From assembly GCF_034355335.1 (NCBI RefSeq), contig NZ_CP136422.1, positions 4,622,501 through 4,686,500 on the forward strand: a DNA stretch of 64,000 nucleotides. Direction: 5' to 3'. The translations under genes were made by a program, and so were the position numbers. This DNA comes from Blautia coccoides (GTDB lineage: Bacteria > Bacillota > Clostridia > Lachnospirales > Lachnospiraceae). The notes beneath the pieces are model-generated. The model was given only the letters and a program-made list of their open reading frames with translations, was not told where the DNA came from and made no database searches. Shown one piece after another: positions 21,387 through 39,730 of this stretch (position 1 is its first letter; the number at the start of each line of letters is the position of its first letter).

Positions 21387-22460
21387 CTGAAGAAAGAAAA
21401 GAAAAGGGAGGTTCCCCTCCGTAATATAGCATTGATCGGTAATCCCAATGTAGGTAAAAGCACTGTGTTCAACGCACTGACAGGTATGCATCAGCATACA
21501 GGGAACTGGTGCGGAAAGACAGTGGAATGTGCCGCCGGTACCCGTATTTGCCGGGGAAAGGAATACCGTTTTGTAGATTTGCCGGGATGCTACTCTCTCT
21601 CCTGCCGTTCCAGTGAGGAGGAGATTTCCCGTGATTATATCCTGCAAAGTCACCCCGATGTGGTGGTGGCAGTCTGCGACGCCACTTGTCTGGAGCGGAA
21701 TCTCAATCTGGTGCTCCAGATCTGTGCTGTCACTCCCCATGTGCTTCTATGCGTAAATCTCATGGATGAAGCCAGGAAAAAGCATATCCGAATAGACTTT
21801 CCCAGGCTCCAGAAAGAACTTAAGATCCCTGTAATCGGAATAGCAGCCAGAAGCCGAAAGGGCCTTGAACGGATATTCGGGGGAATAGAAGATGCCCTTT
21901 CCAACACAGCGGCTGTTACCCCTGTTCCTGATATTTATGGCAGAAATGCAGAGATATGCTGCGCGTCTGCGGAATACTGCGGCACCTATGTCCAACAGGC
22001 CGCAGGTATCTGCAAAGCCTGCGTCACTTTGGAAAACCCGGATTATGCCAGAAAGGACAGGAAGCTGGATAAAATTTTCACCAGTAAATGCACCGGTTTT
22101 CCCATTATGCTTCTCTTCCTGCTCTGCATTTTCTGGATCACCATTGTGGGGGCAAATGTGCCCTCCGACCTGCTGAACAAGGGACTTTTTTGGCTGGAGC
22201 CGCAGTTTTACCATGGACTTCTCATGATTGGACTTCCTGAAATCCTCTGTCAGATTTTGATCTACGGAGTATACCGGGTTGCTGCCTGGGTGGTAAGTGT
22301 AATGCTCCCTCCCATGGCTATTTTCTTCCCGCTTTTTACTCTGCTGGAGGATTATGGATATCTTCCCCGTGTGGCCTTTAATCTGGACCACTGTTTCCAG
22401 AAATGTTGTGCATGCGGAAAACAGGCGCTCACCATGTGCATGGTTGATATCAGGATATGA
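21387..22460 (+). pseudogene. feoB: FeoB ferrous iron transporter, N-terminal half, interrupted by the island
   Basis: This half encodes the G domain (GNPNVGKSTVFNALTG, DLPGCYSLS, VNLMDEA), the GDI region and the start of the membrane part (FPIMLLFLLCIFWITIV, then LFTLLEDYGYLPRVAF). It ends at CGKQALTMCM, after which island sequence adds VDIRI and a stop. The rest of the gene resumes at 38898. The N-terminus is also odd: the best ribosome site (GAGGTG) precedes a CTG at 21387 giving MKKEKKREVPLRNIALIG, while the first ordinary start is a TTG at 21432 inside the P-loop approach. Joining the two halves gives exactly 630 codons in one frame. Confidence 0.93.
22430..22443. repeat. Left attachment-site core of the feoB island (direct repeat copy 1)
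   Basis: CACCATGTGCATGG is found here and again at 38884-38897. It encodes the T-M-C-M of FeoB in both copies and marks where feoB leaves and re-enters the sequence. Confidence 0.88.
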
Positions 22461-24066
22461 TTTTTCTGAATCTGAAATAAATTCTCACAGACTGTTTTTT
22501 TATACGTCCAAACTCCGTTTCCCGGTAACTTCCCTGACCGATTTCAATACGGTCAATAAAGTGAAAAAGCAGTTCACGGGACAGTTTCTCCGGCTCGGTG
22601 AAACCACGCAGTACCTTTTTCAGTTGTTCTATCGTATCCTCTTTTCTTTCATTGCTGACATTTGTCTTCAGACTTTTTATCTTCACGGAAATCTCATGGT
22701 TTTCTCCCTCATATCTGCTGAGCAGTTTCTTCATCCTCTCTTCCCCCAGCACGCCCTCCACGTGATCCTCATAGAGCTTTTCAATCAGTCTGTCCAGTTC
22801 ACGGCAGCGCCTTTCCAGGAGAGAAATCTGTTTTTTTCTGTCCGTTTTGGCATTTTGTTTTTCCAGATATTTCTCCGCACGTTCCAAAATTTCATACTCT
22901 TCCTGTCCGGAAATAGAAACCGACTCCCGGATAGCGGATAATATAATACTGCAGAGGGTGTCATAATCCATAAAATGATTTGTACACTCTTTTGTTCCGT
23001 ATAGTTTATAAGCACCACATGCGAGATTCGCAGAAGAGCCTTTTTTCCTGGTCCCCACAGCGGACATGTTCCTGCCGCAGTCCGCACATTTTGCAATTCC
23101 TGAAAATATATTTTTAAATTCACCTTTTTGGGCGCAGGTGCGCTGCCTGCTCCTGCGGCCTGCCATGGCAAAAACCTCCCGGCTGACTAAGGGTTCATGT
23201 GTATTTTTAACTACATACCAATCCTCTTTTGGATTTTTGACTGTTGTCCCGCTTTTAAAAGATATTTTTGTAGTCTTTCCCTGCGCCATATGTCCCAGAT
23301 ATACTATATTGTGCAGCATTTTCGTGATGGTCGATGAGGTCCACCCTCTCCGTTTCCCAAAATCCACCGTACTTTCCGAAGGCTTTTTCTTTTGGCGGTA
23401 TTCCAGAGGAGTAGGAACCTGCCGCCGGTTCAGTTCCCTGGAAATATCAACAGGCAAAATGCCTTTGGCGGCTTTCCCAAATATCTCCCTTACGATCTCT
23501 GCCGGCTCTTCATCCGCTACCAGATGATGTTTATCCACAGGGTCCCGCATATAGCCGTAAGGTGCAAATGCACTGACAAAATCCCCCTCCTCCATATGAG
23601 TCATAAAAGAGGAGCGTATTTTTTTGCTGATATCCCTGGCGTACATCTCATTGATAATGTTTTTAAAGGGAGCGATATCCGTGTAGGGGCTGTCAGAATC
23701 ATATCCATCATTGATGGCAATATACCGCACCTTCTTCGATGGAAAATAAATCTCCGTATACTGTCCGGTCAGAATATAGTCACGCCCCAGACGAGACAGA
23801 TCTTTGGTGATCACCATATTGACTTTACTGTTTTCTATATCCCGGATCATACGCCTGAAATCGGGACGCTCAAAGGTGGTGCCCGAAATGCCGTCATCCA
23901 CATACTCATCATATACGTAGTAATGATTCTCCGCCGCATAAGCTCTGAGCATTTTTCTCTGCGTGGTAATACTGGCACTCTCACCTTCGCCTTCATCGTC
24001 TTTTGAAAGGCGCATATAGAGAGCCGCCGAATACCGTTTCTTTTCAGGCAGCATATTGTTACTCAA
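22450..24066 (-). CDS. Large serine recombinase (TnpX/Tn4451 class)
   Basis: A 538-residue recombinase with an N-terminal resolvase domain (ALYMRLSKDDEGEGESASI, with the catalytic Ser in RLSKDD; DGISGTTFERPDFRRM; ITKDLSRLGRDY), a recombinase domain (GYMRDPVDKHHLV onward), a zinc ribbon (CADCGRNMS ... CGAYKLYGTKEC) and a C-terminal coiled coil. All domains are complete. It ends 7 bp inside the left repeat, the usual place for an integrase beside its attachment site, so it very likely inserted the island and could excise it with a directionality factor. The start is a TTG at 24066 with GAAAGGGG ahead, or the ATG at 24054. It overlaps the stop of a 51-residue upstream frame. Confidence 0.95.
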   Translation of the reverse strand: MSNNMLPEKKRYSAALYMRLSKDDEGEGESASITTQRKMLRAYAAENHYYVYDEYVDDGISGTTFERPDFRRMIRDIENSKVNMVITKDLSRLGRDYILTGQYTEIYFPSKKVRYIAINDGYDSDSPYTDIAPFKNIINEMYARDISKKIRSSFMTHMEEGDFVSAFAPYGYMRDPVDKHHLVADEEPAEIVREIFGKAAKGILPVDISRELNRRQVPTPLEYRQKKKPSESTVDFGKRRGWTSSTITKMLHNIVYLGHMAQGKTTKISFKSGTTVKNPKEDWYVVKNTHEPLVSREVFAMAGRRSRQRTCAQKGEFKNIFSGIAKCADCGRNMSAVGTRKKGSSANLACGAYKLYGTKECTNHFMDYDTLCSIILSAIRESVSISGQEEYEILERAEKYLEKQNAKTDRKKQISLLERRCRELDRLIEKLYEDHVEGVLGEERMKKLLSRYEGENHEISVKIKSLKTNVSNERKEDTIEQLKKVLRGFTEPEKLSRELLFHFIDRIEIGQGSYRETEFGRIKKQSVRIYFRFRKIIS

Positions 24067-24218
24067 TAGATTCCCCTTTCAGAACAATACCACTGACGAC
24101 TGTTATCAACTGTCGGCGCACCTATTTTTTCAATCAGCAGCTCCAACAGCAGCTCTTTCAGTGTTACTTCGTCGGAAAATCTCAACTCCACAACATAGTC
24201 CGCAGTTTTCTCTTCCAT
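24063..24218 (-). CDS. Small protein translationally coupled to the serine recombinase
   Basis: A 51-residue acidic, Leu-rich frame (MEEKTADYVVELRFSD at its start, WYCSERGIY at its end) is preceded by AAAAGGGG six bases before the ATG. Its stop overlaps the recombinase start. Small frames directly ahead of TnpX-type recombinases are common in Clostridia, but I do not recognise this one. A role as a recombination accessory factor is only a guess from position. Confidence 0.55.
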   Translation of the reverse strand: MEEKTADYVVELRFSDEVTLKELLLELLIEKIGAPTVDNSRQWYCSERGIY

Positions 24219-24354: not shown

Positions 24355-24945
24355 TTATTCATGTGCCTTCCACGCACATTCCATAAGCTCCATATCTGTA
24401 AACACAGCTTTAAAAGATGATTCCTCAGGGCTGCAGGCGTACACGCCGAAAGAGATCTCATCTGCACCCTCCCAGAAATGACAGATACGCATCTGCTTAT
24501 AATTCACCCCGTCTGTACTGCATTCAAAACAAAAATCCGACTCACGTCTGCTGAAACGATACCACATTTCTTTGACAGACGCAGGGATATCTGTTGTGGC
24601 CCAGTCAGAATATCCGTGGTTTGTGACTACGCTTCCCAGACGTTGTAATTCTTCATTTTCATATTCTATAGAAGCTTTCATCCAGTTGTCGCTGTCAAGG
24701 TATGCTGCTACCCCGCACTGATCAAATCTTCTTTTACTTTCAAATGTGGTTTTCACAACAAAAGAAAAATACTTCTCTTTTGTCTTCATCTGCAGTACAG
24801 GCGCATTGTCATTGCGGAATCCGTAATATGTGCGCTGCCACAGATCCGTTCCCGGTTCTGTGTAAATTTCTATCCTTTCATTCGTTACTTTTGACTGCTT
24901 TGGCTCTCTTGTCCAAAATAAATTTTTGCTGTTAAAACACTCCAT
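24355..24945 (-). CDS. DUF1349 (concanavalin-like fold) protein
   Basis: A protein of about 196 residues of the DUF1349 family, a beta-sandwich related to concanavalin-type lectins and glucanases. Visible stretches are YYGFRNDNAPVLQMK, FDQCGVAAYLDSDNWMKASIEY, the DWATTDIPASVKEMWYRFSR core and ISFGVYACSPEESSFKAVFTDMEL at the end. No signal peptide is seen, so it is cytosolic. Function is unknown; some relatives are encoded with carbohydrate enzymes. The ATG at 24945 has GGAGGAAAG upstream. It is alone between the recombinase and the nucleoside operon. Confidence 0.8.
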   Translation of the reverse strand: MECFNSKNLFWTREPKQSKVTNERIEIYTEPGTDLWQRTYYGFRNDNAPVLQMKTKEKYFSFVVKTTFESKRRFDQCGVAAYLDSDNWMKASIEYENEELQRLGSVVTNHGYSDWATTDIPASVKEMWYRFSRRESDFCFECSTDGVNYKQMRICHFWEGADEISFGVYACSPEESSFKAVFTDMELMECAWKAHE

Positions 24946-25211
24946 AACACTTTCCTCCACTTTCTTTGTACTTTTATGCAATTACTCCGATTCCCTGTCT
25001 CCAGCTCCTTTGTCAGACATAAACCCACTATTTTTTATGCTTCCATATTCTGTCTGATGAGCTTTTCATTTCCAGGAATATGTTTATATTATAAAGCCCG
25101 AAGCCGGCTGCAAGTCAATATCTTTTTCCATATTTCATATATTACAGTATCAGAGTATGTCTCAGAATTGCTTTTATCAGACTGCGCGCCGAAATTTGTG
25201 GGAAATCTGGA

Positions 25212-25298: not shown

Positions 25299-25712
25299 TC
25301 ACGCCAGATTTCCCGGCCCGAATCCCATAGGCAGAAGTTCCTTTAATGTATAAATCTCATAATGCTCCGTATCCGTAGCCAGGATGATCTGAAAGCTCTC
25401 CGGGCTGCAGAATTCCATCATCACCTGCCGGCATACGCCGCAGGGCGCTGTGTATTCCGTAAGAATACCGTTTTTTCCGCCCACGATACAGATGGCGTCG
25501 AACTCTCTCTCCCCTTCGCTGACCGCTTTAAAAAAAGCTGTTCTCTCTGCGCAGTTGGTGGGAGTATAAGATGCATTTTCAATATTGCACCCCTTATATA
25601 TTTTCCCCTCCGGTGTATGGAGCGCTGCTCCCACCTTAAAATGAGAATAAGGTGTGTAAGCACTCTCCATTGCCTCAATCGCCTGTTTGATCAATTCTTT
25701 TACTGGAATCAT
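25299..25712 (-). CDS. cdd: Cytidine deaminase
   Basis: A homotetrameric-type cytidine deaminase of 137 residues. Zinc ligands and catalytic Glu are in TNCAERTAFF and PCGVCRQ, and the substrate loop CNIENASYTP is intact. It turns cytidine and deoxycytidine into uridine and deoxyuridine, feeding the uridine phosphorylase of the same operon. ATG 25712 is chosen because GGAG lies seven bases upstream. It is the last gene of the operon, 57 bp after deoC, and is followed by a terminator. Confidence 0.96.
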   Translation of the reverse strand: MIPVKELIKQAIEAMESAYTPYSHFKVGAALHTPEGKIYKGCNIENASYTPTNCAERTAFFKAVSEGEREFDAICIVGGKNGILTEYTAPCGVCRQVMMEFCSPESFQIILATDTEHYEIYTLKELLPMGFGPGNLA

Positions 25713-25769
25713 AATGTTACTCCTATACAAGTCTGATTAGCCTTTTGACTACTTGTTGCTTTACTGTTT

Positions 25770-26423
25770 CTATCGCTGTGCCTTCGCCGCTTTTACCAGA
25801 CGGCTGGTCCCAAGACGGTCCGCACCCAGCTTTACAAACTCTTCCCCATCGGCAAAGGAGGATATCCCGCCGGCTGCTTTTACTTTCTTGTCATTTCCCG
25901 TGTATTCTCTCATAAGCTTCACATCTTCAAATGTTGCCCCATGGGTTGAAAAGCCTGTAGATGTCTTGATATACTCCGCATCTGATTCTGTGACTGTTCT
26001 GCACATCTGGATCTTCTCTTCCTCTGTGAGCAGGCAAGTCTCAATGATGACCTTCAGCAGTTTTCCATTGCAGGCTTTCTTAACTGCCTGGATCTCTTCT
26101 CTGACCAGATCATACCGGCCTTCCTTCACCCATCCCAGGTTGATGACCATGTCAATTTCCTCTGCCCCGTTCCTCACAGCGTCCTCAGTTTCAAAAACCT
26201 TCACGGCAGTGGTATTATATCCGTTTGGAAAACCGATGACTGTACATACCGGCATTTTGTCTCCCAGGTACTCTGCTGCCTGTTTCACATAAGATGGCGG
26301 AATGCAGACAGATGCCGTCTGATAGGCTACCGCATCATCGCATATAACCTTGATTTCCTCCCAGGTAGCTGTCTGAGCCAGCAGTGTATGGTCAACTTTA
26401 CTTAATATTTCTCTCTGTTCCAT
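25770..26423 (-). CDS. deoC: Deoxyribose-phosphate aldolase
   Basis: A 217-residue class I aldolase that splits 2-deoxyribose 5-phosphate into acetaldehyde and glyceraldehyde 3-phosphate. The Schiff-base Lys is in the [10 protein letters not shown] motif and the proton-relay Lys in [17 protein letters not shown] and [12 protein letters not shown] are also typical. AAGGAGG precedes the ATG. It completes the route from deoxynucleosides to central metabolism with the phosphopentomutase upstream. Between the two genes lies one copy of the 87-89-bp island repeat, an unusual interruption in an otherwise tight operon. Confidence 0.96.
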
Positions 26424-26677: not shown

Positions 26678-27889
26678 TTATTCCGATACTGTCAGTTTGT
26701 CCAGACAAGAAATCCCTATAGTTCCCTCCGGCCTCTTCACCTGGAAATTATCCGCCACAGTTGCCCCGATCCTTCCGAAATCACTGCTCTCTTCCAGCTC
26801 TCCCCCGCGTGTAAACGCCGGCGAATATGCCAGAAATGGTACTTTTTCCCGTGTGTGGTCTGTCCCGGTATATGTCGGGTCATTTCCGTGATCCGCAGTC
26901 AGGATCAGCAGATCCTCTTCTCCCAGACTTCCAATCAGTACACCCAGTTTTTCATCAAACTGTTCCAGCTCACGGGCGTATCCCTCTGCGTCCCTTCTGT
27001 GTCCCCACAGGGCATCAAAATCCACCAGATTCACAAAGCAGAGTCCGTGAAACTCTTTCCCTGCCATTTCTATGGTCTGTTCCATCCCGTGGAGGGAACT
27101 TTTTGATTTATATGCCTGGGTAATGCCCTCTCCGTCAAAGATATCCTTGATCTTCCCAATGGAGATCACATCATAAGACGCCTCTTTCAGCGCATCCAGA
27201 ACTGTTTTCTGAAAAGGCTTCACTGCATAGTCATGACGGTTCGATGTGCGCTTAAACTCCCCTTTTTTTCTTCCCACATAAGGGCGCGCAATGACTCTTC
27301 CCACCATCCATTCCTCCCTCATGGTCAGTTCCCTGGCAATCTCGCAGTAATGATACAGAGTCTCAAGACCCATAGTCTCTTCATTTCCGCAGATCTGCAG
27401 GACGGAATCCGCAGAAGTATAGACAATCAGATGTCCTTTTTCTACTTCTTCCTCCCCCAGCTCCTCCAGGATTTCTGTGCCGCTGGCGCTTTTATTTCCG
27501 ATGATTTTTCTCCCGGTGCGCTTTTCCAGCTCATGGATCAGTTCTTCCGGAAAGCCATGCTCTGTAAAAGTCTTAAAAGGCCTTGTGGTGTGAAGCCCCA
27601 TCATCTCCCAGTGTCCCGTCATAGTATCCTTCCCGCTGCTGGCCTCCCTCATGGCAGAATAATAAGCAAGAGGAGACGGCGTGCTGCCAACCCCATTAAG
27701 GGGAAGGATATTCCCTATCCCCATTTTCTCCAGGTTGGGGATCTGAAGAGTCTTCCCTTTTTTGTACCTGTAATCCGCAATATGTCCCAATGTGTTGGCA
27801 CCTGCATCTCCAAACTGTTCCGCATCCGGCATGGCGCCTACCCCCAGTGAATCCAGCACCACCACAAAGATACGCTTGAATTTCTCCAT
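26678..27889 (-). CDS. deoB: Phosphopentomutase
   Basis: A 403-residue alkaline-phosphatase-superfamily mutase that converts ribose or deoxyribose 1-phosphate to the 5-phosphate. Motifs are [14 protein letters not shown] at the N-terminus (metal), [14 protein letters not shown] (the phospho-acceptor Thr), and [19 protein letters not shown] (metal ligands). Length is typical. AAGGAG precedes the ATG. It links the uridine phosphorylase to deoC within the same operon. Confidence 0.97.
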
Positions 27890-27912: not shown

Positions 27913-29010
27913 TTAAATCAGTTTCACATTCACATACTCAGCTTCTATTTCTGTCGCGTCAGTGATCCCCTCATCTTTTAAAATGGTGATCTCATTATCC
28001 GCTATCTTTTCATATATGGTATCATACTGCTCCTGTGTAAATACAGTAAATCTGGAAGTATCCATGGGAAGCTGTACTCCATCCTCTGAGGCGTCCAGCG
28101 TAATGCTCTCTCCTCCTTTAAATTCCCCGTTATAAAAATCTGTCAGATAGTCATAGACTGCTTTGCTCAGATTTTTCATGGCGGAGGTAATGACCGTCTC
28201 TGACTCTGCACTCTGGTCCACATCCACGCCGATCACCTTTTTCCCTGCATTTTCAGCGGCCTTCATGACAGAGTTTCCCACAGGACCACCGCAGGAGAAG
28301 ATCACCTCTGTCCCCTCATTATACCAGGACGCCGCTTTTGCCATGTTCTCCGGGGATGCCTCGAAGTTACCCACATATGTATATTTCATATCAATACTGC
28401 CCGGAGCCATACCCTTTTCTCTTGCTGCGTAATCAGCTCCCTGGATAAAGCCATATCCATACCGGATAACCGCCGGAACTGCGATCCCGCCCATAAATCC
28501 AAGCTTTGTATAGCCTTCATAGACCGCCGCGTAGCCTGCCAGAAATCCTGCCTGCTCCTCCGCAAAATAGATTGATGCTGTATTCTCCCCTATATCTGGT
28601 TCCGGGGAATCCGCGGAATGCGGTGTCCCATCCAGAATTATGAACTTCACTTCCGGGTGCTTCTGCTGCATGGTATGGATGGGGATCTCGTACAGATATC
28701 CCGGACACACCACCACTTTCGCGCCGCCTTTTGCCGCCAGATTGATAGAGGTGGTGAATGCCTCATCCGATTTCTCCGTGGGCTGATAATACTTATGGGT
28801 GATACCGAATTCCTCCGAATATCTTGCAAGTCCTTCCCAGGAACCTTGATTAAAAGAGCGGTCATCTATACTTCCCACGTCTGTGCTCAGGGCCAATTCC
28901 GCGCCTTTTCCGCTGCTGACCTTTGCCGCCTGCTTTGCGCCCAGCCCGCATCCGACCAGGGATACACTAAGAACTGACGCCAGTAACAGACTTATCACTT
29001 TTTTCATCAT
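27913..29010 (-). CDS. BMP family nucleoside-binding lipoprotein of an ABC transporter
   Basis: A 365-residue BMP/PnrA-type solute-binding protein. The signal peptide and lipobox are visible (LLLASVLSVSLVGC, Cys about residue 21), so it is anchored outside the membrane. Typical segments are DVGSIDDRSFNQGSWEGL, VVCPGYLYEIP, AGFLAGYAA and IGVDVDQSAES. BMP proteins bind purine or pyrimidine nucleosides (PnrA, BmpA, YufN). It lies between phosphopentomutase and the permeases in one operon, which strongly supports nucleoside uptake. Confidence 0.94.
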   Translation of the reverse strand: MMKKVISLLLASVLSVSLVGCGLGAKQAAKVSSGKGAELALSTDVGSIDDRSFNQGSWEGLARYSEEFGITHKYYQPTEKSDEAFTTSINLAAKGGAKVVVCPGYLYEIPIHTMQQKHPEVKFIILDGTPHSADSPEPDIGENTASIYFAEEQAGFLAGYAAVYEGYTKLGFMGGIAVPAVIRYGYGFIQGADYAAREKGMAPGSIDMKYTYVGNFEASPENMAKAASWYNEGTEVIFSCGGPVGNSVMKAAENAGKKVIGVDVDQSAESETVITSAMKNLSKAVYDYLTDFYNGEFKGGESITLDASEDGVQLPMDTSRFTVFTQEQYDTIYEKIADNEITILKDEGITDATEIEAEYVNVKLI

Positions 29011-29024
29011 TCTATTATATCCTC

Positions 29025-29978
29025 CTATCTGCTTCCTTTATCATACGGAATACCTTCTGCCTTCGGAGCTTTGGATTTGCCGGAAGAAAAGGCAAGTACG
29101 ATCAGTGTCACCACATACGGCAGCATTTTATAGATCTCATTGGGAATCGGCAGGTCCTTGATAACCGGGATCCCGGAATAAGCACTGGCAAGTGTCTTTA
29201 AAACACCGAAGAAAAATGCCGCGCCAAGAATTCCCTTTGTTCTCCACTGTCCAAAGATCAGCACTGCCAGCGCCAGGAATCCGTATCCCGCTACACTTGC
29301 ATTAAAATTGGTGGAGGTGGGAATCACAAAGATCAATCCCCCCACACCTGCAAGGACACCTGAAATCAGGACACCCGCATATCTGATCTTATATACATTG
29401 ATGCCTACCGAATCCGCTGCCTGGGGATGTTCCCCGCAGGCGCGCAGCCGAAGTCCAAATCTGGTCCTGCTGATCAAAACAGAGGCTGCAATAAAAATAA
29501 AAATACCAATATAGGTGGAGAGATAACAGTTACGGAAAAACATAGGTCCGATGACCGGAATGTCTCCCAGGACAGGCACTTTCTCTATATGGAAGGTATC
29601 TGTAAAAGGAACCTGGGATTTTCCCTGCACCATCCTTGCCATAAAAAGAGCAAAGGCCGGTGCAAACATATTCAGAGCTGTACCGCTGATCGTCTGGTCT
29701 GCCTTCAGATTGACAGAGGCAAAGGCATGGAGCAGGGAGAATACAGCCCCGGCTGCTGCTGCCACTAAGAAAGCCAGCAGAAACAATCCCTGTCCGCTCA
29801 AACGGTCCTGAAATACATTGATAAAGCCAATACTGATAAACGCTCCCATGACCATAATACCTTCCAGGGCGATATTGATAACACCGCTGCGTTCAGAGAA
29901 CATTCCGCCCAATGCCACGATCAAAAGGGGAATAGAAAAAAACATGGTCTGCTGTATTAAAAAATAGATAATGTTCAT
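29025..29978 (-). CDS. Nucleoside ABC transporter permease (second subunit)
   Basis: A branched-chain/ribose-type permease (BPD_transp_2) of about 317 residues and eight to ten membrane segments; it starts MNIIYFLIQQTMFFSIPLL. It shows SERSGVINIALEGIMVMGAF and GLRLRACGEHPQAADSVGI, the cytoplasmic coupling region. The ATG at 29978 has GGAGGAG upstream and overlaps the stop of the first permease by ATGA, so translation is coupled. It resembles YufQ/NupC-type subunits of nucleoside importers. Confidence 0.94.
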   Translation of the reverse strand: MNIIYFLIQQTMFFSIPLLIVALGGMFSERSGVINIALEGIMVMGAFISIGFINVFQDRLSGQGLFLLAFLVAAAAGAVFSLLHAFASVNLKADQTISGTALNMFAPAFALFMARMVQGKSQVPFTDTFHIEKVPVLGDIPVIGPMFFRNCYLSTYIGIFIFIAASVLISRTRFGLRLRACGEHPQAADSVGINVYKIRYAGVLISGVLAGVGGLIFVIPTSTNFNASVAGYGFLALAVLIFGQWRTKGILGAAFFFGVLKTLASAYSGIPVIKDLPIPNEIYKMLPYVVTLIVLAFSSGKSKAPKAEGIPYDKGSR

Positions 29979-31072
29979 AATGCTGTCTCCTCCCTTTTTG
30001 ATCTCTTTGTCCATTTGCGGATAAATGTCTTAAACAGCAGGGAAAATGCCCCAAAATATATGATCGCCGAAATGATAATATCTATCAGTTCCGGAGTAAA
30101 GCTGAGAAGCTGGAGATTATAGCCGCCGATGGTGATATGCGCAATGAACAGACTGGCCAACAGGATCCCAAAAGGATTGGACAATCCCAAAAGCGCAACG
30201 GAAATCCCTGAAAATCCCTGGGACGCGATCACATCTAATACCTGCATATGCTTTCCGAAATCAGACAGGTATAACAGTGCCCCGCCTACACCTGAAAGTG
30301 CGCCTGCAATAACCATGGACAATATGATATTCTTTTTGGCATTGATGCCCGCATAACGGCTGGCATCCGGGTTCTTGCCGCAGGCTTTCAGTTCATAGCC
30401 GAACGCGGTCTTATTGATCAATATGTACATTCCCACCACGAACAAGACTGCGATGAGGATTCCGATATTCAGATTCGCCTCAGGAAAAAGCTTATCCAGG
30501 CCTGCCTTGGGCAGATATGCCGTCTTCGCCACCGGAACACTCTGGTTCCCTGTCTGGTCATAGACTGTCTTTGTTATCAGCAGATTTGTCAGGTAAAGGC
30601 CGATATAATTCATCATGATAGAGGAGATCACTTCATTTACATTTGCCACCGCCTTTAAAAATCCCGGCACCAGCCCCCACACCGCCCCAGCGGCGGCTGC
30701 GCCCAGAATGGCTATAAGCCAATGGATACTACCCGGAAGTCCGGTGCACTTGACGCCAATCAGAACTGCCACATAAGCACCCACGGTAAACTGTCCGGAT
30801 GCTCCTATGTTAAACAGCCCTGTCTTCCAGGCAAAGCCTACGGAAAGTCCGGTCATCACAATGGGGGTTGCCAGATAAAGTGTCTGGGAAATCCCGCTCA
30901 TGCCGTCCACAAATCCGCCCTCTAAGATTGTGAGAAAACCGGAAAACATTTCATTGGAGTTGGTGATCAGAAGGATAAAAAGTCCGAACAGCAGCCCCGC
31001 CGCCACAGCCAGTACAGAGGAAAGAAAACTTTCCACTCCCTCGTTCCCCCTCTTATTCTTTTGTTTTAACAT
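29975..31072 (-). CDS. Nucleoside ABC transporter permease (first subunit)
   Basis: A 365-residue permease of the same superfamily (YufP/NupB-like) with about ten membrane segments. FAWKTGLFNIGASGQFTVGAYVAV and FGYELKACGKNPDASRYAGI are the characteristic stretches. It overlaps the ATPase gene by 7 bp and the second permease by 4 bp, consistent with a stoichiometric complex. The tail is basic (FIRKWTKRSKREE), giving a cytoplasmic C-terminus. Confidence 0.94.
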   Translation of the reverse strand: MLKQKNKRGNEGVESFLSSVLAVAAGLLFGLFILLITNSNEMFSGFLTILEGGFVDGMSGISQTLYLATPIVMTGLSVGFAWKTGLFNIGASGQFTVGAYVAVLIGVKCTGLPGSIHWLIAILGAAAAGAVWGLVPGFLKAVANVNEVISSIMMNYIGLYLTNLLITKTVYDQTGNQSVPVAKTAYLPKAGLDKLFPEANLNIGILIAVLFVVGMYILINKTAFGYELKACGKNPDASRYAGINAKKNIILSMVIAGALSGVGGALLYLSDFGKHMQVLDVIASQGFSGISVALLGLSNPFGILLASLFIAHITIGGYNLQLLSFTPELIDIIISAIIYFGAFSLLFKTFIRKWTKRSKREETAL

Positions 31073-32598
31073 GCTGCATTCCCCTTTCCTGTTCCGGCCA
31101 TATAAAGCCCCAGTTCCTGAATGGTCACATCCTTTGGCTTCACATCCGCAACAATCTTTCCTTCATACATGACAAGTATCCTGTCACTGACATTCATGAC
31201 CTCATCCAGCTCAAAAGATACTAAGAGAACCGCTTTCCCGGCATCCCTCTGTGCTATGATCTGTCTGTGTATATACTCAATAGCCCCCACATCAAGTCCA
31301 CGGACCGGCTGGACCGCGATCACGATTTCCGGATTTCTGTCCAGCTCCCTTGCAATGACAGCCTTCTGCTGATTACCGCCTGACATGCCTCTGGCAATAG
31401 AATCCGCTCCGTGAGCACTTCTGATATCATAGCGCTCTATGAGCTTCTCCGCGTATCTGTCAATCTCATCGAATCTCAAAAATCCGTGCTTGTCAAACTG
31501 CGGGGTGTAGTAGTTCTGGAGGATTAGGTTTTCTTTCAGTGTATAGTCCAGAACCATTCCGTGCTTGTGTCTGTCTTCAGGAATATGAGCCATACCGTCC
31601 AGACATTTTCTGCGGATACTCTCTTTTGTAATATCCTTATCATTCAGGAATACCTGTCCCTGGTCAATTCCCATGAGTCCGGTGATCCCATAGACAAGTT
31701 CTGACTGACCATTGCCGTCAATCCCTGCAATACAGACGATCTCGCCCTTCTTTACATCAAAGGATACATGATCCACAACGTTTTTGCCTGTACGTTTGGA
31801 ACGCATGGTCATATCCCGGACAGAAAGGGCGGTTCCCAAAGGCTTCATTTCCTTTTTCTCCACAACAAAGTCCACCTTACGCCCCACCATCATCTCAGAC
31901 ATTTCTTCTTTACTGGCTTTCGCCACATCAATGGTTCCGATATACCGTCCTTTTCTGAGTACAGTACAGCGGTCTGCAACTGCCTTGATCTCTGCCAGTT
32001 TGTGAGTGATAAACAGGATGGATTTTCCTTCCGATACCAATTGTTTCATAACCTTCATGAGTTCATCAATTTCCTGCGGCGTCAGCACGGCGGTGGGTTC
32101 ATCAAAGATAAGTACCTCGTTGTCGCAGTAGAGCATTTTTAAAATTTCCACTCTCTGCTGCATGCCCACTGTAATATCGCTGATCAGGGCGTCAGGGTCA
32201 ATTTTAAACTTGTACCGCTCGCTTAATTCCACTACCTTTTTTCTGGCCTCATCCATTTTCAGAAAATGATGCTTTACAGACTCATGACCAAGTACGATAC
32301 TCTCCAATACCGTAAAATTATGTACCAGTTTAAAATGCTGATGCACCATTCCGATCCCCAGCGCGTTGGCATCATTGGGGTTATTGATCGTCACAGGTTT
32401 CCCGTTCATCTTGATCATTCCCTGTTCCGGCTGGTACAGCCCGAACAGTACACTCATCAGAGTGGACTTTCCTGCGCCGTTCTCTCCCAGCAACGCGTGT
32501 ATCTCACCTTTTTTCAGCCTCAGCGTAATATCATCATTTGCCTTGAAACTGCCGAACTCCTTGGTGATATGTTCCATTTCAATCACATACTGCTCCAC
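31066..32598 (-). CDS. Nucleoside ABC transporter ATPase (two ABC domains)
   Basis: A 510-residue double ATPase like RbsA/YufO. The first domain has an intact Walker A (LLGENGAGKSTLMSVL), the GMQQRVEILK signature region and LIFDEPTAVLTPQ. The second has a degenerate Walker A (GIDGNGQSELV) but a good MSGGNQQKAVIARE signature, the asymmetry normal for this family. A GTG start at 32598 is supported by GGAGG seven bases ahead. It energises the two permeases for nucleoside import. Confidence 0.95.
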   Translation of the reverse strand: MEQYVIEMEHITKEFGSFKANDDITLRLKKGEIHALLGENGAGKSTLMSVLFGLYQPEQGMIKMNGKPVTINNPNDANALGIGMVHQHFKLVHNFTVLESIVLGHESVKHHFLKMDEARKKVVELSERYKFKIDPDALISDITVGMQQRVEILKMLYCDNEVLIFDEPTAVLTPQEIDELMKVMKQLVSEGKSILFITHKLAEIKAVADRCTVLRKGRYIGTIDVAKASKEEMSEMMVGRKVDFVVEKKEMKPLGTALSVRDMTMRSKRTGKNVVDHVSFDVKKGEIVCIAGIDGNGQSELVYGITGLMGIDQGQVFLNDKDITKESIRRKCLDGMAHIPEDRHKHGMVLDYTLKENLILQNYYTPQFDKHGFLRFDEIDRYAEKLIERYDIRSAHGADSIARGMSGGNQQKAVIARELDRNPEIVIAVQPVRGLDVGAIEYIHRQIIAQRDAGKAVLLVSFELDEVMNVSDRILVMYEGKIVADVKPKDVTIQELGLYMAGTGKGNAAC

Positions 32599-32663: not shown

Positions 32664-33434
32664 TTACTTTTTATCTTCTCTGATCAATATTCTCAGCGCT
32701 TCCACAGCCACCTTGATCGCAGCGTCCGTATCGTGTACCACCGGATTGGACAGCCCCTGTTTCTCACGTTCCTGATTGGCCACCACCAGGAAATTGGAAC
32801 CGCAGCGCACTCTCAGATAATTGGCCACAACAAACAGTGCGGCAGATTCCATCTCCGACGCCTTACAGCCAAGTCTGAGCCACGCCTCCCATTTGTTCAT
32901 CAGCTCATAGCTGACCGGCTTGGTCTCCGGCTCATGCTGTCCGTAAAACGCGTCCTTGCACTCTACAACACCTGCGTGATACTGATATCCACAGTTCTCG
33001 GCTGCTTTTACGAGGGCATTTGCCACATGGAAGTCAGCAACTGCCGGATATTCAATGGGGGCGTACTCTTTGCTGGTGCCTTCCATACGGATAGCTCCTG
33101 TGGCAACTACAATATCTCCGCCCTTCACATCTACATCCATTCCACCGCATGTACCCACACGGATAAATGTATCTGCTCCGCTCTTCACAAGTTCCTCCAT
33201 GGCAATAGATGCTGACGGCCCGCCGATCCCTGTTGATGTGACACTTACTTTTTCTCCGTCCAGGTAACCTGTATATGTCACATACTCTCTGCTGTCTGCC
33301 ACCAATACAGGGTTATCAAAATATGCCGCGATTTTCTGGCATCTCTTGGGATCTCCCGGAAGAAGCACATATCTTCCCACGTCCCCTTTTCTTATATTCA
33401 AATGATACTGCACGCCCTCTTCTGCGTAATTCAT
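32664..33434 (-). CDS. udp: Uridine phosphorylase
   Basis: A 256-residue nucleoside phosphorylase (PNP_UDP family). [13 protein letters not shown] and [16 protein letters not shown] bind phosphate and ribose; [20 protein letters not shown] and the [15 protein letters not shown] segment are typical of uridine phosphorylases. It releases uracil and ribose 1-phosphate. It is the first gene of the nucleoside operon, with AAGGAGGAAG before the ATG and a near-consensus promoter just upstream. Together with Cdd, DeoB and DeoC it gives a full pyrimidine nucleoside route. Confidence 0.92.
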
Positions 33435-33509: not shown

Positions 33510-33702
33510 TCAAATTACTATGCACAATATAAACAATATTTCTCGTTTATTTTTGTACATATATTACAACCCACCCATGACAGCGCTTACATTTATCCGT
33601 CAAATATTAGACATGTTTTCAAATTGACTAATATAACAAAAAGTTGTATACTTAACATATCTTATTTCGATAGTGACTTATTTCCGGACGGAGGATAATG
33701 AT

Positions 33703-34464
33703 ATGAATGAACCACTGGACAAAAATATCCCTAAAACAGGCATGTCCGAAGAAAAATCCAGAAAACTAAAGCATGTAAAGGTCTATGACCAGCTCTATGC
33801 ACAGATTATAAATGGGGAATATCCCAAGGGTTCCCAGCTGCCCAGCGAACCAGACTTGTCTAAAGAAATGGGTGTGAGCCGTATGACGCTCCGACAGGCA
33901 CTTGCCCTGCTCAGGGAAGACGGACTGATCCATAATGTACAGGGGAAGGGAAACTTTGTACAGGGAATAAAGAAATCTCCTGCCAAAAACTCAACCAATC
34001 TATGTAACCCTGTATTCCAATGCGGTCAGACCGTTACAGAGACTGAGACGGAGTACCGTCTGGAACCTCCCACGGACTTTATCAGTGATATGATCGGTCG
34101 GAAAACCCCTGTGGTGGCCATCACAGACCGCTGGTACAAAGATCAGGCAGGCAGCACATTTGCTTATTCCCTCAGTTTTATTCCCATTGAAACCGTTACA
34201 CAGTTCAATATCGACTTTACAGATATGGACAGCCTGACCCGCTTTCTGAACCAGGATATTTACCGCCATGCGGTCTCCTCCACCCTGAATCTGAGGGGGT
34301 CTGACACAGGAAACTTCACAGCCCAAAAATACAGACTCTCCGAAAAAAACACATTCCTCATGATACAGGAAAATCTGTACAGTGATTCCGGCCTCACTTT
34401 AGCGGCCACAAAGCACTATATTCCTCTGGAATCCTGTAACCTGGTACTGACTTTCCAGAAATAA
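33703..34464 (+). CDS. GntR family regulator (HutC subfamily)
   Basis: About 253 residues: an N-terminal winged helix (VYDQLYAQIINGEYPKGSQLPSEPDLSKEMGVSRMTLRQALALL) and a UTRA effector-binding domain from residue 95 on (EYRLEPPTDFI ... DRWYKDQ). HutC-type regulators bind small metabolites through UTRA. ATG 33703 has GGACGGAGG upstream; an earlier in-frame start at 33673 lacks one. It is divergent from the nucleoside operon and adjacent to the GH31 gene, so it may repress either or both until a sugar phosphate or nucleoside signal arrives. Confidence 0.9.
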   Translation: MNEPLDKNIPKTGMSEEKSRKLKHVKVYDQLYAQIINGEYPKGSQLPSEPDLSKEMGVSRMTLRQALALLREDGLIHNVQGKGNFVQGIKKSPAKNSTNLCNPVFQCGQTVTETETEYRLEPPTDFISDMIGRKTPVVAITDRWYKDQAGSTFAYSLSFIPIETVTQFNIDFTDMDSLTRFLNQDIYRHAVSSTLNLRGSDTGNFTAQKYRLSEKNTFLMIQENLYSDSGLTLAATKHYIPLESCNLVLTFQK

Positions 34465-34603: not shown

Positions 34604-36967
34604 TTATTCCAATACAAACTCCATGGTATCTTCCCGCATCTCGAACTGAATACCATTTTCAACACTTACTTTCTGTATTTCCCTGTCACTTCTAATGTCA
34701 GTGACATTTATGAGCTGTACAAAGACATTTTTCCTCTGTCCCTGCAGTTCCAGTTTTATTTTTTCTCCTCTACGATTCACATTCAGTTTCAGGACCATCT
34801 CCCCGGAAGTATTATAGACTCTGCAGTCCTTTTCAAAAGTTTCGGGAATTTCATACAATTTAAATGTGATCCCATCCGCATATTCATAAACCGGTGTGTC
34901 CGCCTTTGCCCCAACAGGGAGTATGCTTCCCGGACGGACAAACAGCGGCATATGGAAATAATCATACGCTTTGTTATACCACTTACCGCCTCCCAGGATT
35001 TCACCGTCCAGATAATTGGTCCACTGGCCTTTCCCCGGCAGGTAAAATTCCGCCTCACCGCTTTCATTGAAAATGGGGGCCACCAGAAGATCACTCCCCA
35101 GCATATACTGCCTCTCCAGATGCAGACAGGTGGGACACTTGGGGAATTCCAGCATCATGGCTCGCATCAGAGGAACTCCCTCCTCCAAAACCTGAACACT
35201 CTTGCTGTACAGATAAGGCATTAGCCTGCATTTCAGATTGGTAAATTCTTTCAATACCCGGCAGGACTCCTCATCAAAATACCAGGGCGCCCGGTAACTC
35301 TGCTCCCCGTGAAGCCTGCTGTGCGTGGAGAGCATTCCAAACTGCACCCAACGTTTATACAAGTCCGGTGTTGCGGTCTTACAGAATCCACTGATATCGT
35401 GGGCCCAATACCCATATCCTGACTGGCACAGTGACAGGCCGCCTCTCAGGCTTTCTGCCATGGAGATATACGAAGCCTCATTATCTCCGCCCCAGTTAAA
35501 GGGGAATTTTTGGGTTCCCGCTGTAGCTGACCTGGAAAATACGCATCCCTCCCCCTTTTTCTCCCGAATCAGTTCGTATACCGCCTGATTATAGAGATAT
35601 GGGTAATAATTATGCATCTTCGCAGGGTCCGAACCATCAAAATAGACCACATTCTTAGGGATCCGCTCTCCGAAATCCGTCTTAAGAGCATCTACGCCCA
35701 TATCCAGTATGGCACCCAGTTTATCCTGATACCAACGTACCGCCTCAGGATTTGTAAAGTCCACAATTGCGATCCCTGACATCCAGTTATCTGACTGCCA
35801 CACATCCCCGTCCTTTGTCTTTAGAAAATATCCTTTGTCTTTCCCTTCCTGAAACAGATAAGACTCCTGGCTTATATACGGATTGATCCAGACACAGACC
35901 TTTACGCCTCTCTCATGGATGGCATCCAGCAGTTTCTTGGCATCCCCGTACCGTTTTGACCAGACAAAATCACAGCATTTATAATCATCCATCCAGCGGG
36001 CGTCAAAATGAAATACGGACAGCGGAATCTCATATTCTTTCATTTTATCAATAGTATCCAGTGTGATCTGCGCATCTGAGTCAGGCATCCAGCTTGTAGA
36101 GATCCACAGACCATAGGTCCAGGCAGGGGGAATGGGTGTCCTTCCGGTGAGAGCTGTGTAATTTGACAGAACCTCTTTTGGTTCACTGCCCCCTATCACC
36201 ATGTACTCCAGTTCTTCCTCCTGTACCGCGATCTCCACGTGGCGTACACTTACATTTGCCACCTCAAACCCCACCCTGGCAGGAGTGTTTACAAAGATAC
36301 CGTAGCTTTTACTGGACAGATAAAAAGGAATATTCTTATATGCCTGATTTCCGTTGGAACCGCCGTCACGGTTCCAGCAGTCAACTGACTGTCCGTTTCT
36401 GATACAGGAAGTAAAACGCTCGCCCAGACCGTAAATGTATTCCCCCACGTCAAGACTCAGCATTTCCCGGATATAATTTTCGTTTCGGCTGTCTCTCCCG
36501 TTTCTTCCGTTATAATCACACAGTTTATCCGCCTCATATTCTGCGTCTGTGACATAGGCCGTACCTTTTTCCCCGCATTTTGTCAGAAAACGCCCGTCAT
36601 AATAGAAGGCGATCCCAAAATCTCCTGTTTTACTCACCACTGCCTTCATCTTACCATTTGTTATAAGGATCTCCTGCTCTGTCTCACATACCTGGGTGTC
36701 AATATAGGAAACATCCAGGTCAAAAACAGGACCGCGCTCCTTTTTGCCTGTAAAATGGTATACTTTCACAGCCAGTATATCCTTTCTCGGGGCAGTGATG
36801 GTAAAATGGAGGACCGGCCCGGATATCGTATCTCTGAGCGAACGGATCTCAGTACAGGGTACCATGAAATGAACCTGTTTATCCTCTGCTCTCCATTCCC
36901 ACAGGGAATGGGCCCTGTGAAGCTTATACCCGTTTCTCGACTCCCATAATCCGTCTGTAAACCGCAT
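34604..36967 (-). CDS. GH31 alpha-glycosidase, probable alpha-xylosidase (YicI-like)
   Basis: A 787-residue family 31 enzyme. The catalytic barrel shows PPAWTYGLWISTSWMPDSDA, FHFDARWMDDYKCCDF, and DALKTDFGERIP with the nucleophile Asp; the acid/base Asp is in NWGGDNEASYISMAESL. The YicI-type KTDFGERIP and length favour alpha-xylosidase over alpha-glucosidase. There is no signal peptide, so it acts on imported oligosaccharides. ATG 36967 follows AAAGGAG by seven bases. It is a lone gene with its own terminator; its link to the nucleoside genes is only physical. Confidence 0.9.
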   Translation of the reverse strand: MRFTDGLWESRNGYKLHRAHSLWEWRAEDKQVHFMVPCTEIRSLRDTISGPVLHFTITAPRKDILAVKVYHFTGKKERGPVFDLDVSYIDTQVCETEQEILITNGKMKAVVSKTGDFGIAFYYDGRFLTKCGEKGTAYVTDAEYEADKLCDYNGRNGRDSRNENYIREMLSLDVGEYIYGLGERFTSCIRNGQSVDCWNRDGGSNGNQAYKNIPFYLSSKSYGIFVNTPARVGFEVANVSVRHVEIAVQEEELEYMVIGGSEPKEVLSNYTALTGRTPIPPAWTYGLWISTSWMPDSDAQITLDTIDKMKEYEIPLSVFHFDARWMDDYKCCDFVWSKRYGDAKKLLDAIHERGVKVCVWINPYISQESYLFQEGKDKGYFLKTKDGDVWQSDNWMSGIAIVDFTNPEAVRWYQDKLGAILDMGVDALKTDFGERIPKNVVYFDGSDPAKMHNYYPYLYNQAVYELIREKKGEGCVFSRSATAGTQKFPFNWGGDNEASYISMAESLRGGLSLCQSGYGYWAHDISGFCKTATPDLYKRWVQFGMLSTHSRLHGEQSYRAPWYFDEESCRVLKEFTNLKCRLMPYLYSKSVQVLEEGVPLMRAMMLEFPKCPTCLHLERQYMLGSDLLVAPIFNESGEAEFYLPGKGQWTNYLDGEILGGGKWYNKAYDYFHMPLFVRPGSILPVGAKADTPVYEYADGITFKLYEIPETFEKDCRVYNTSGEMVLKLNVNRRGEKIKLELQGQRKNVFVQLINVTDIRSDREIQKVSVENGIQFEMREDTMEFVLE

Positions 36968-37098
36968 TGTCAATCTCCTTTCAAACTATGCATAGCTGCT
37001 GTAACATCCGCTTCTGCTGATATTTACATTGTAAGCTATCCTGTTTGATTTTCCATTACAAGTTTGCGATACTGCCATGACTAATTCGTCTTTTCCCG

Positions 37099-37476
37099 CT
37101 ATCTGTCCGCGTTCTCCAAGATTCCCTCATTCATCACGCACAGCGCTTCCAGCGCACTTCTGAAATACGTCTGTCTGCCGTCCGCTCCCCTGAGCTGCCC
37201 CTGCCAGCTATTATGCTGTGTATACAGCACCTGAAGCAGATAAAAGCACACTGCATTCTTTCCAAAACCGCAGTCCTGCAGGGAATGATATTCCGGCAGC
37301 TCCGCAGACTTTTCACCGCTTATTTCCAGATATGTTAAAATCCGGTTTATTTTCAGCAGCATATCCCCCAAATCATGAAATCTAAGTATTTCACAATAAT
37401 TGGGATTCATGATCCACCCTTCCGGAGTATGATCTCTGATGTTTTCCACATGAATAAAAAAATCTCCGCCTCTCAT
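37099..37476 (-). CDS. Hypothetical protein of the island
   Basis: A 125-residue protein of mixed composition beginning MRGGDFFIHVENIRDHTPEGW and ending with a helical segment (FRSALEALCVMNEGILENADR). AGGAGG lies well placed before the ATG, supporting translation. I do not recognise a family. It has a few Cys but no metal-site spacing, no signal peptide and no membrane segment. It lies between the glycosidase and the tyrosine recombinase; the second copy of the island repeat lies in its upstream region. Confidence 0.65.
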   Translation of the reverse strand: MRGGDFFIHVENIRDHTPEGWIMNPNYCEILRFHDLGDMLLKINRILTYLEISGEKSAELPEYHSLQDCGFGKNAVCFYLLQVLYTQHNSWQGQLRGADGRQTYFRSALEALCVMNEGILENADR

Positions 37477-37665: not shown

Positions 37666-37719
37666 GCCTGTTCTCCCTTCAGAAAGGCAGTATTACTGTT
37701 TGGAAAAAACATGAAAACC

Positions 37720-37914: not shown

Positions 37915-38757
37915 TCACGTGGTAATAACAAGTTCCATCCTTTCAAGCTGTCTCAAATGCTCTTTTCCGCTCTCCATTGTATAGATACGCGTTGTGGAAA
38001 TATTTGCATGTCCCAATAGATCCGCCAGTTTTACCAGATCCTTCTCCAGCATATAATAGGCCTTTGCAAACAGATGGCGCAGATTATGTGGAAATACCTT
38101 TTTCGGTTCCACCCCTGCACTTCCACATAAGGACTTCATATCTCTCCATATATTGTTCCGATCCAGGGGCCTGCCGCTTTTTGTGCGGAATACAGGGCCG
38201 CTCACAATGCCTGTCTCCCTGCAGTAATTCCGGAGCGCACGACATAAGTCACGATGCAGAAATACAACGCGGTTTTTTCCCTTGCACGTTACAGCAGCCT
38301 GCCCGGTGCACAGGGCTTCTTTGGTGATATACTGCAGTTCCGATACACGGATCCCCGTGGCGCAGATAGACTGCAGTAAAAGAGAAAGTCTACGGTTCCC
38401 TTTTTGCTCTGCCGTTTTTACAAGACGTACATACTCCTCACGGGTCAGTTCTTTTTCCGGTTTTGAGAAAATTTCCCTCTGCATTTTCAGGGGTTTCACC
38501 TTCATCTGCGGCACACCTGTAAATTCCAGATATCCGTTCACAGCAGCCAGCATGGAATTGATACTGGCAGGCGCATGAGTTTCTCTCAGCGTTTCTTTCC
38601 ACTTCAGCACTGCTTCTTTTTCTATTTTCTTTCCGTTCAGAAATATAAAAAAAGCACGCAGATCACGGATGTATTTCTCGATTGTCTTTTGACTGCGTTC
38701 CTGATACTGTAAATGTTTTTCATACTCTTTTAAGATTTTCTGGATATCTCTTTTCAT
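37915..38757 (-). CDS. XerC/D-like tyrosine recombinase at the right end of the island
   Basis: A 280-residue tyrosine recombinase with a SAM-like core-binding domain (YQERSQKTIEKYIRDLRAFFIF) and catalytic residues in ICATGIRVSELQYI (Arg), KGKNRVVFL (Lys), PHNLRHLFAKAYY (His-Arg), LLGHANISTTRIYT (His and Tyr). It looks complete. Small recombinases of this kind often drive integration or DNA inversion. It is only about 130 bp from the right junction, but the serine recombinase is the better candidate for island integration; this one may be a second-element remnant or act elsewhere. Confidence 0.9.
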   Translation of the reverse strand: MKRDIQKILKEYEKHLQYQERSQKTIEKYIRDLRAFFIFLNGKKIEKEAVLKWKETLRETHAPASINSMLAAVNGYLEFTGVPQMKVKPLKMQREIFSKPEKELTREEYVRLVKTAEQKGNRRLSLLLQSICATGIRVSELQYITKEALCTGQAAVTCKGKNRVVFLHRDLCRALRNYCRETGIVSGPVFRTKSGRPLDRNNIWRDMKSLCGSAGVEPKKVFPHNLRHLFAKAYYMLEKDLVKLADLLGHANISTTRIYTMESGKEHLRQLERMELVITT

Positions 38758-38812
38758 TTTCCTGCTTCCTTTCTTCTGTTTTTACTTATTCTACCGCATC
38801 CAGAAGAAAGTT

Positions 38813-39730
38813 ATGCTCCTTTTGTGCACAGGGTGTATCTTGACAGGAGGGCTTTGCTTGATTTTTATATCCATATATTGCCCCACCATGTGCATGGGCT
38901 TTGGATGCAATGCGGCAGGCGTTACCGGGTGCCGCATCATTGACTCTCCCAGGGAACGTCTGATCGCCATACTGACGAACAGCCTTGTTCCTTGTAATGG
39001 AAGGTTTCCGACGATTTTAGCTGTACTCACTATGTTTTTTGCTGCAGGCACCGGGCTTTTTACTTCCTTATCTCTTGCCCTTCTGCTGGCAGCCACCATA
39101 CTACTGGGCATTTTTATGACATTTTTCTCATCCTGGCTTCTGTCCAAAACAGTATTGAAAGGGGTTCCTTCCTCTTTTACCTTGGAGCTTCCGCCTTACC
39201 GGCGCCCCCAGTTTTTCAGGGTACTGGTGCGTTCTGTTATGGACCGCACCCTTCACGTACTTTGGCGGGCACTGATCGCTGCGGCTCCTGCTGGGCTTAT
39301 TATATGGGTACTTGCAAATGTTAATGTGGGCGGCACTTCCCTTCTGCTGCATTTTGCCGGATTTCTGGAACCTGCCGGACAGCTTATGGGACTGGATGGA
39401 ATCATCCTGCTGGCTTTCATCCTCGGACTGCCGGCCAATGAGATTGTGGTGCCTATCATGATCATGGCTTATACAGCGCAGGGGACACTGACCGATTCCG
39501 GCAGTCTTGCAAGCCTGCATACGTTACTTGTCCAAAACGGCTGGACCTGTTTCACTGCTGTCTCTATGCTTTTATTTACTTTGATGCACTGGCCCTGTGC
39601 CACAACTCTTTTAACCATAAAAAAAGAAACCCACAGCTTGAAATGGACATTTTTGGCATTTCTTATTCCAACGGTTTTAGGCTTTGTGTTCTGTTTTCTA
39701 TTCAATTGTATGGTGCGGCTGTTCTTATGA
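38813..39730 (+). pseudogene. feoB: FeoB C-terminal half with an island-derived start
   Basis: From 38884 on this is FeoB membrane sequence: MCMGFGCNAAGVTGCRIIDS, RERLIAILTNSLVPCNGRFP (Gate 1-type motif), and after several membrane segments ILGLPANEIVVPIMIM and HWPCATTLLTIKKE. The frame is open back into the island, where an ATG at 38813 would add a hydrophobic leader of about 24 residues (MLLLCTGCILTGGLCLIFIS). A separate C-terminal polypeptide is therefore possible in principle. No clear ribosome site precedes that ATG. The junction repeat is at 38884-38897. Confidence 0.92.
38884..38897. repeat. Right attachment-site core of the feoB island (direct repeat copy 2)
   Basis: CACCATGTGCATGG is identical to 22430-22443; the next base differs (G here, T at the left), consistent with the edge of the crossover region. 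Confidence 0.88.

Follow-up and report, generated by a model that had tools for sequence, protein, structure and literature searches.

Site-specific serine-recombinase islands interrupt the ferrous-iron transporter gene feoB in Blautia coccoides and other Lachnospiraceae

When a mobile island is found inside a transporter gene, is that gene lost, or can it be restored? This question is raised by a 64,000-bp stretch of the Blautia coccoides genome (contig NZ_CP136422.1, positions 4,622,501 to 4,686,500; below, the window), in which the ferrous-iron transporter gene feoB is divided by an island that carries a large serine recombinase (LSR) and genes for nucleoside salvage. The genome is a single contig of 6.10 Mb, and Blautia parvula NBRC 113351 is a congener. 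A sequence-only reading of the window had suggested that the island could excise to restore feoB, and that the cell may switch between ferrous iron uptake and nucleoside use. We consider it probable that the island belongs to a feoB-specific family of serine-recombinase islands in the Lachnospiraceae, without conjugation genes in the open reading frames (ORFs) scanned, whose members insert and are lost again within species, with such precision that feoB is restored. On sequence comparison, a site-specific island family is well supported, and empty sites are supported at the protein level.

Results

The interrupted gene and its junctions

On one strand, the window carries in order feoA, the N-terminal part of feoB (N-half), the island, which measures 16,454 bp from core to core, and the C-terminal part of feoB (C-half). 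The features that define the split are as follows.

21068..21331, plus strand: feoA, 87 amino acids (aa), 5' of feoB (Pfam FeoA, 9.2e-14)
21387..22443, plus strand: feoB N-half, with the GTPase domain (Pfam FeoB_N, 6.1e-54) and the beginning of the first Gate domain, which starts at residue 289 (Pfam Gate); CTG start likely, frame checked
22430..22443: attL core, an exact copy of the repeat CACCATGTGCATGG; its inner arm is next to it at 22444-22463
22450..24066, minus strand: large serine recombinase, 538 aa, TTG start (Pfam Resolvase, Recombinase, Zn_ribbon_recom and DUF4368; 39.1% to genes annotated tndX)
24063..24218, minus strand: 51-aa ORF overlapping the recombinase start, a candidate recombination directionality factor (hidden Markov model (HMM) of such ORFs; no Pfam family)
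38884..38897: attR core, the other exact copy of the repeat; its inner arm lies before it at 38864-38883
38898..39730, plus strand: feoB C-half (Pfam FeoB_C and Gate)

The halves of 1057 and 833 bp, joined by script, read as one frame of 629 aa and a stop (630 codons), and the rejoined junction is ACCATGTGCATGGGC with feoB on either side. The cut point is formed by the codons for TMCMG, within the first Gate domain. A clean split of feoB, a sum of 630 codons, a repeat at both junctions and a complete LSR at the left junction had all been read from the sequence before, and all stood: the halves flank the island on the same strand, the copies of CACCATGTGCATGG are exact, and the recombinase ORF is complete and intact, with the resolvase, recombinase and zinc-ribbon domains that are expected of an LSR element. 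With up to two mismatches allowed, the repeat has no match in the window beyond these two copies, and a chance repeat was rejected, as shuffles gave a mean of 0.53 matches and two or more in only 7 of 100.

Related islands at the same site

The same site is split in relatives. In a survey of 20 genomes of the genus, our own included, the N-half was matched in 11 and the C-half in 10. Three congeners (the B. coccoides genome, B. parvula and G009) are split at the site, seven (G003, G004, G007, G008, G010, G013 and G015) have an uninterrupted feoB in one frame, and G016 gave merely a 39-base match. The island of the B. parvula reference genome is 16.1 kb long (16,133 bp core to core), with the same cargo order and 84-89% DNA identity in blocks, and that of G009 is 19.5 kb long (19,452 bp), with a homologous recombinase and different cargo. 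A recombinase search of 397 genomes of the family gave matches at 1e-100 in 60. Full-length recombinases of at least 49% identity (G096, G363 and G352) sit at split feoB, as do those of Lacrimispora celerecrescens (G438) and, in truncated form, G137; no feoB motif was found within 1.5 kb of 26 further recombinase loci (identity at most 42%). Core-to-core lengths among these more distant elements are 14,963 bp in G352, 14,128 bp in L. celerecrescens, 8,592 bp in G096 and 4,922 bp in G363. The eight recombinases at feoB group together in the tree (32 rows; support 99/98; 100% of 200 bootstrap trees), with G137 on a long branch. All eight recombinases found of this clan, from at least five genera, are at split feoB, a small sample which shows no multi-targeting in the sense of more than three unrelated target genes. 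Carriage of the recombinase by a known phage or plasmid was rejected, the best phage match being 38% and the best plasmid match 41% identical, with no match on a viral contig. The suggestion that the split is an artefact of assembly can be dismissed with near certainty, since three assemblies, each in a single contig, and four more genomes show it alike.

When the C-half was used as query, 70 of the 397 genomes matched at 1e-70. Among the short-frame matches we fetched G247, G284, G243, G137, G365 and G316, besides G000, G096, G352 and G363. A recombinase-bearing insertion in feoB was found in at least eight of the 70 (G000, G096, G352, G363, G137, G284, G243 and the decayed G247, in which the end of the N-half was not located), a lower bound, as G020, G244, G221 and G088 were not fetched; in G365 and G316 the feoB frame breaks without an insertion. 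The recombinases of G243 and G284 are of a second type, 61% identical to each other, that of G243 being only 23% identical to the B. coccoides enzyme; that of G284 does not adjoin a junction. The G243 element at this feoB site is phage-like: the neighbours of its recombinase match phage holin, head-scaffolding and repressor families, and the halves lie approximately 10.7 kb apart. A protein search with the N-half listed 120 proteins, of which 97 stop or diverge immediately behind CGKQALTM, with 46 distinct tails; this search admits proteins of 188-599 aa only, some ends may be contig ends, and it gives no split-to-intact ratio. The second recombinase type and the many tails would both suit an ordinary one-way mobile island, for which feoB is a safe conserved landing place, insertions are recent or re-acquired, and the halves look selected since the gene was intact until lately. 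We return to this possibility below.

Attachment sites

The stretch common to both ends is 14 bp in B. coccoides, 8 bp in B. parvula, 7 bp in G009 and 6 bp (CATGTG) in four others, and CATGTG is common to all seven elements. Because identity between the ends falls to 8, 7 or 6 bp elsewhere, the 14-bp length of the B. coccoides repeat is partly a coincidence of the two arms. We reconstructed attP by joining the inner arms, which are inverted around A-TG-T, and scored their pairing over 18 positions. L. celerecrescens gave 15 pairs, G363, B. parvula and G009 gave 14, and G352 gave 13, and the weakest were B. coccoides with 10 (p 0.016) and G096 with 9 (p 0.064). Shuffled attP arms formed approximately 5 pairs on average, and attB arms 6-8 of 18. 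As is typical of an LSR element, there is a shared short core and a reconstructable attP that is distinct from attB.

Joined FeoB proteins

The sequence-only reading had looked to related strains for an intact feoB without the island, and such forms were found as proteins. Joined FeoB was searched against 5.8 billion proteins, with residue-by-residue comparison for the eleven best hits. P0001, of 603 aa, is 99.7% identical to the joined B. coccoides sequence, with two differences, one of which is the start residue, and the empty site is thus seen at the protein level only. Eight further proteins (P0002-P0009) are 99.3-99.8% identical to joined B. parvula FeoB; no joined protein among the eleven best hits was comparably close to G009. 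P0121, the split protein of the B. parvula type, represents 239 contigs and the joined P0001-P0009 represent 14, these being cluster counts and not strain counts. A GNRI/GNRN variant, read by eye, occurs in both split (P0122/P0121) and joined (P0002/P0003) B. parvula-type proteins, and a P/S variant likewise in split (P0121/P0122) and joined (P0002/P0006) proteins, although some variants rest on single sequences. The presence of two residue variants in both forms implies either more than one change of the island state or its reshuffling by recombination. Excision by a recombinase of the B. coccoides type would be the simplest cause of the joined forms. That the split FeoB instead works as two polypeptides, with the C-half starting at the ATG inside the att core, is very improbable. 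An in-frame ATG does stand at the junction in the window and both halves are conserved, but this ATG is a conserved codon of feoB itself, B. parvula and G009 have in-frame stops a few codons before it, and joined proteins exist.

Selection and age

Ratios of non-synonymous to synonymous substitution rates (dN/dS) were limited to three close species, as divergence between genera is saturated. In the comparison of B. coccoides with B. parvula, dN is 0.032 and dS 0.66 for the N-half, and dN is 0.016 and dS 0.74 for the C-half. For the whole split feoB, the three pairs of split species gave dN/dS of 0.035, 0.038 and 0.047, as against 0.076-0.283 in six pairs of intact congeners (G013-G003, G008-G003, G013-G008, G010-G004, G004-G007 and G010-G007), these six being the pairs of 21 with dS below approximately 1.3; the other 15 have larger or saturated dS, with dN/dS of 0.058-0.168 where computed. 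The split feoB is under strong purifying selection. Median dS was 0.64 inside the island (10 genes) and 0.80 outside it (6 genes), values that are not distinguishable (Mann-Whitney p 0.15, after removal of one non-orthologous row). This is as expected of shared descent, and the dS values would agree with, but do not prove, an insertion older than the separation of the two species.

These data bear on the one-way island introduced above. Unlike recent transfers, the island genes differ between B. coccoides and B. parvula to about the same extent as the host genes nearby; the cargo order is the same in both, and by the cluster counts the split form is the commoner. In its favour, other FeoB frames exist in these genomes and decay is clear in G363 and G247. 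We regard a one-way island as a substantial possibility, with somewhat less than an even chance.

A candidate directionality factor

The TTG start of the recombinase overlaps the stop of the 51-aa ORF. An HMM built from six such sequences (B. coccoides, B. parvula, G009, G096, G363 and G352) recovered a seventh, outside the building set, in L. celerecrescens (E 2.7e-12), approximately 1.9 kb before its recombinase. Recombinase and small ORF occur together in 7/7 full-length members of the clan. No match at E<=0.01 was found near the 26 other recombinase loci, in fetched flanks of at most 1.5 kb, nor was such an ORF found in the stretches of G137, G247, G284 or G243. We propose that the 51-aa protein may be a recombination directionality factor, which would set the direction of the reaction. 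TndX of Tn5397 and TnpX of Tn4451 are not known to need a separate directionality factor; if such independence applied here, by analogy, excision might be spontaneous and rare.

A stronger form of our favoured reading, which does not exclude it, is a programmed switch similar to the skin element of sigK, in which excision would be regulated and beneficial, triggered by the 51-aa protein, and would give FeoB back when the cell needs it. The constant pairing of recombinase and small ORF would fit, as would selection on both halves no weaker than in the intact congener pairs compared, and joined forms that match two species. The precedents of Clostridioides difficile and Bacillus subtilis use a recombinase with a directionality factor (PMC5025042, PMC4191935). 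Against a programmed switch, each of the seven genomes retains two or more further full FeoB frames, the cargo varies, the attR arm has drifted in B. coccoides, and a growing cell that excised the island would be left without the only PnrA-type lipoprotein found at 1e-60, unless it kept the circle. We think a programmed switch doubtful.

Contents of the island

Between the recombinase module and attR, the island carries the following.

24355..24981, minus strand: DUF1349 protein, 208 aa (Pfam 1e-66), outside the blocks aligned to the B. parvula island
25299..25730, minus strand: cytidine deaminase family, cdd-like (Pfam dCMP_cyt_deam_1)
25770..26423, minus strand: deoxyribose-phosphate aldolase family, deoC-like (Pfam DeoC)
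26678..27889, minus strand: phosphopentomutase-like (Pfam Metalloenzyme), which from operon context we take to be deoB
27913..29010, minus strand: PnrA-type nucleoside-binding lipoprotein (Pfam Bmp, 4.3e-51)
29025..30014, minus strand: ATP-binding cassette (ABC) permease (Pfam BPD_transp_2)
29975..31072, minus strand: ABC permease (Pfam BPD_transp_2)
31066..32598, minus strand: ABC ATPase with two ABC domains (Pfam ABC_tran, 2 stretches)
32664..33434, minus strand: nucleoside phosphorylase (Pfam PNP_UDP_1)
33673..34464, plus strand: GntR-type regulator (Pfam GntR)
34604..36973, minus strand: GH31 glycosidase (Pfam GH31 domains)
37099..37476, minus strand: 125-aa protein, no Pfam match, 78% identical in B. 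parvula
37915..38757, minus strand: tyrosine recombinase, 280 aa, inside the right end (Pfam Phage_integrase; 88% identical in B. parvula, dN/dS 0.07)

The nucleoside-salvage cargo that had been read from the sequence was borne out by Pfam matches to uptake and salvage genes, to which the GH31 glycosidase, the DUF1349 protein and the tyrosine recombinase are to be added. At 1e-60, the PnrA-type lipoprotein has a single match in the B. coccoides genome and a single match in B. parvula, and none in the third split species, G009. Among the 15 island ORFs scanned, other small ORFs being outside the scan, no Pfam domain of relaxase or conjugation genes was found, and none of phage structural or replication genes. 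The tyrosine recombinase lies inside the right end of the B. coccoides and B. parvula islands and is under purifying selection; as the integrating enzyme it was rejected, since the G009 island at the same feoB site has no hit to it.

Cargo differs among the other feoB islands (G009, G096, G352/G137, G438 and G363). G352 and G137, from different genera, share a block of four cargo genes in the same order (51-58% amino-acid identity), which reflects either an old insertion or parallel transfer. The G352 cargo includes a protein of 2,539 aa with two condensation, two AMP-binding and one reductase-like domain. In G363, two different serine-recombinase elements have each cut feoB, the second of them behind the VPCNG codons; this second element carries, by eye, a LacI-like regulator, a sugar ABC transporter and two glycosidases. 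The B. parvula island encodes a chloramphenicol acetyltransferase family protein (L054:7161-7916; Pfam CAT, 1.5e-27) that was not seen in the B. coccoides island.

The beginning of feoB has features of its own, noted by eye. The CTG start at 21387 is found in all three split Blautia-type genomes, the alternative being TTG at 21432, and between 21370 and 21440 feoB has no ATG in B. coccoides or B. parvula. The CTG is preceded by AAGAGGTG, which is ribosome-site-like, in B. coccoides, B. parvula and G009, the last having additionally an in-frame ATG, and a small hairpin is possible at GGAGG-TTCC-CCTCC near the start. Against B. parvula, feoA has a dS of 0.16, far below the 0.66 of the adjacent feoB half, which hints at local recombination.

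Discussion

In the mechanism that we favour, the recombinase would join attP, with its arms inverted around A-TG-T, to an attB that consists of the feoB codons for TMCMG, and feoB would as such be cut at one exact point. An island with metabolic cargo would then come and go precisely within species, leaving uninterrupted feoB in a minority of database contigs, and recurrent restoration of feoB would keep both halves under selection.

Several observations weigh against this. G363 lacks the start of the GTPase domain and has its C-half cut by the second recombinase element, in G247 both the recombinase and the N-half are broken, and in G137 the recombinase is truncated, though the feoB halves are open; insertion can be a dead end. 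In B. coccoides, the right (attR) inner arm has lost by drift the form that G009 retains, leaving 10/18 pairs as against 14/18 in B. parvula, which may have weakened excision. The joined forms are known as proteins only, P0001 being without a stated source, and could be lineages that never had the island. Finally, all seven split genomes searched hold two or three other full-length FeoB frames, and the split copy is therefore dispensable to a degree.

The sequence-only reading is supported in part: the recombinase island is site-specific and cleanly inserted, FeoB proteins in joined form exist, and the halves are under selection. A switch of the cell between iron uptake and nucleoside use would go further, and FeoB as such is not lost upon the split, because of these other frames. 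A trade of iron against nucleosides is one possibility; as the cargo varies across the family while feoB is constant, any switch would concern feoB. A wider view is tentative: feoB of Lachnospiraceae may be a long-lived shared docking point for exchangeable metabolic islands, precise excision a heritable on/off switch of ferrous-iron transport, and island-bearing and FeoB-positive cells might coexist in one population. Reversible iron-transport switching in gut bacteria is directly testable. In addition, the recombinase group, seven members of which have natural attP/attB pairs, offers a set of sequence-specific integrases to try.

Among known enzymes, the B. coccoides recombinase is 39% identical, over 97% of the query, to genes annotated tndX on Enterococcus plasmids, and as such resembles TndX and TnpX. 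These ride conjugative or mobilisable elements; in contrast, the B. coccoides island has the 51-aa ORF, one strict target and no conjugation genes seen in the ORFs scanned. DUF4368 is common in a multi-targeting LSR clade, and the site-specific LSRs of Durrant et al. are distantly related recombinases that use one target gene (PMC10083194); the feoB site is likewise used by distantly related recombinases. The words feoB, ferrous and iron transport are absent from the main text of that paper, whose supplementary tables may hold feoB-targeting members. No report of a serine-recombinase insertion in feoB was found among titles and the starts of abstracts, a search without most subscription papers; feoB appears in PMC6070778 as cargo of an Acinetobacter island and not as target, its mention in PMC13011404 is unrelated, and the passages of PMC3158075 do not mention it.

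The closest precedent is the skin element in sigK of B. subtilis and C. difficile, in which a serine recombinase element similarly cuts a host gene at one point, and the gene is restored by excision with the directionality factor CD1234 (PMC5025042). The feoB islands differ in that the target is an iron transporter rather than a sporulation factor and the cargo is metabolic. In the SP-beta prophage in spsM and the comK prophage of Listeria, the interrupted gene is also reconstituted by excision (PMC4191935). Unlike these prophages, the island has no phage genes among the ORFs scanned, yet the phage-like element of G243 occupies the same feoB site. Citable gene-interrupting elements with known precise loss are in sporulation or competence genes and mostly prophage-like. 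The feoB islands stand apart from them in having a transporter as target, catabolic cargo, one codon run that is used by two recombinase types, and an interrupted gene that is still under selection across species.

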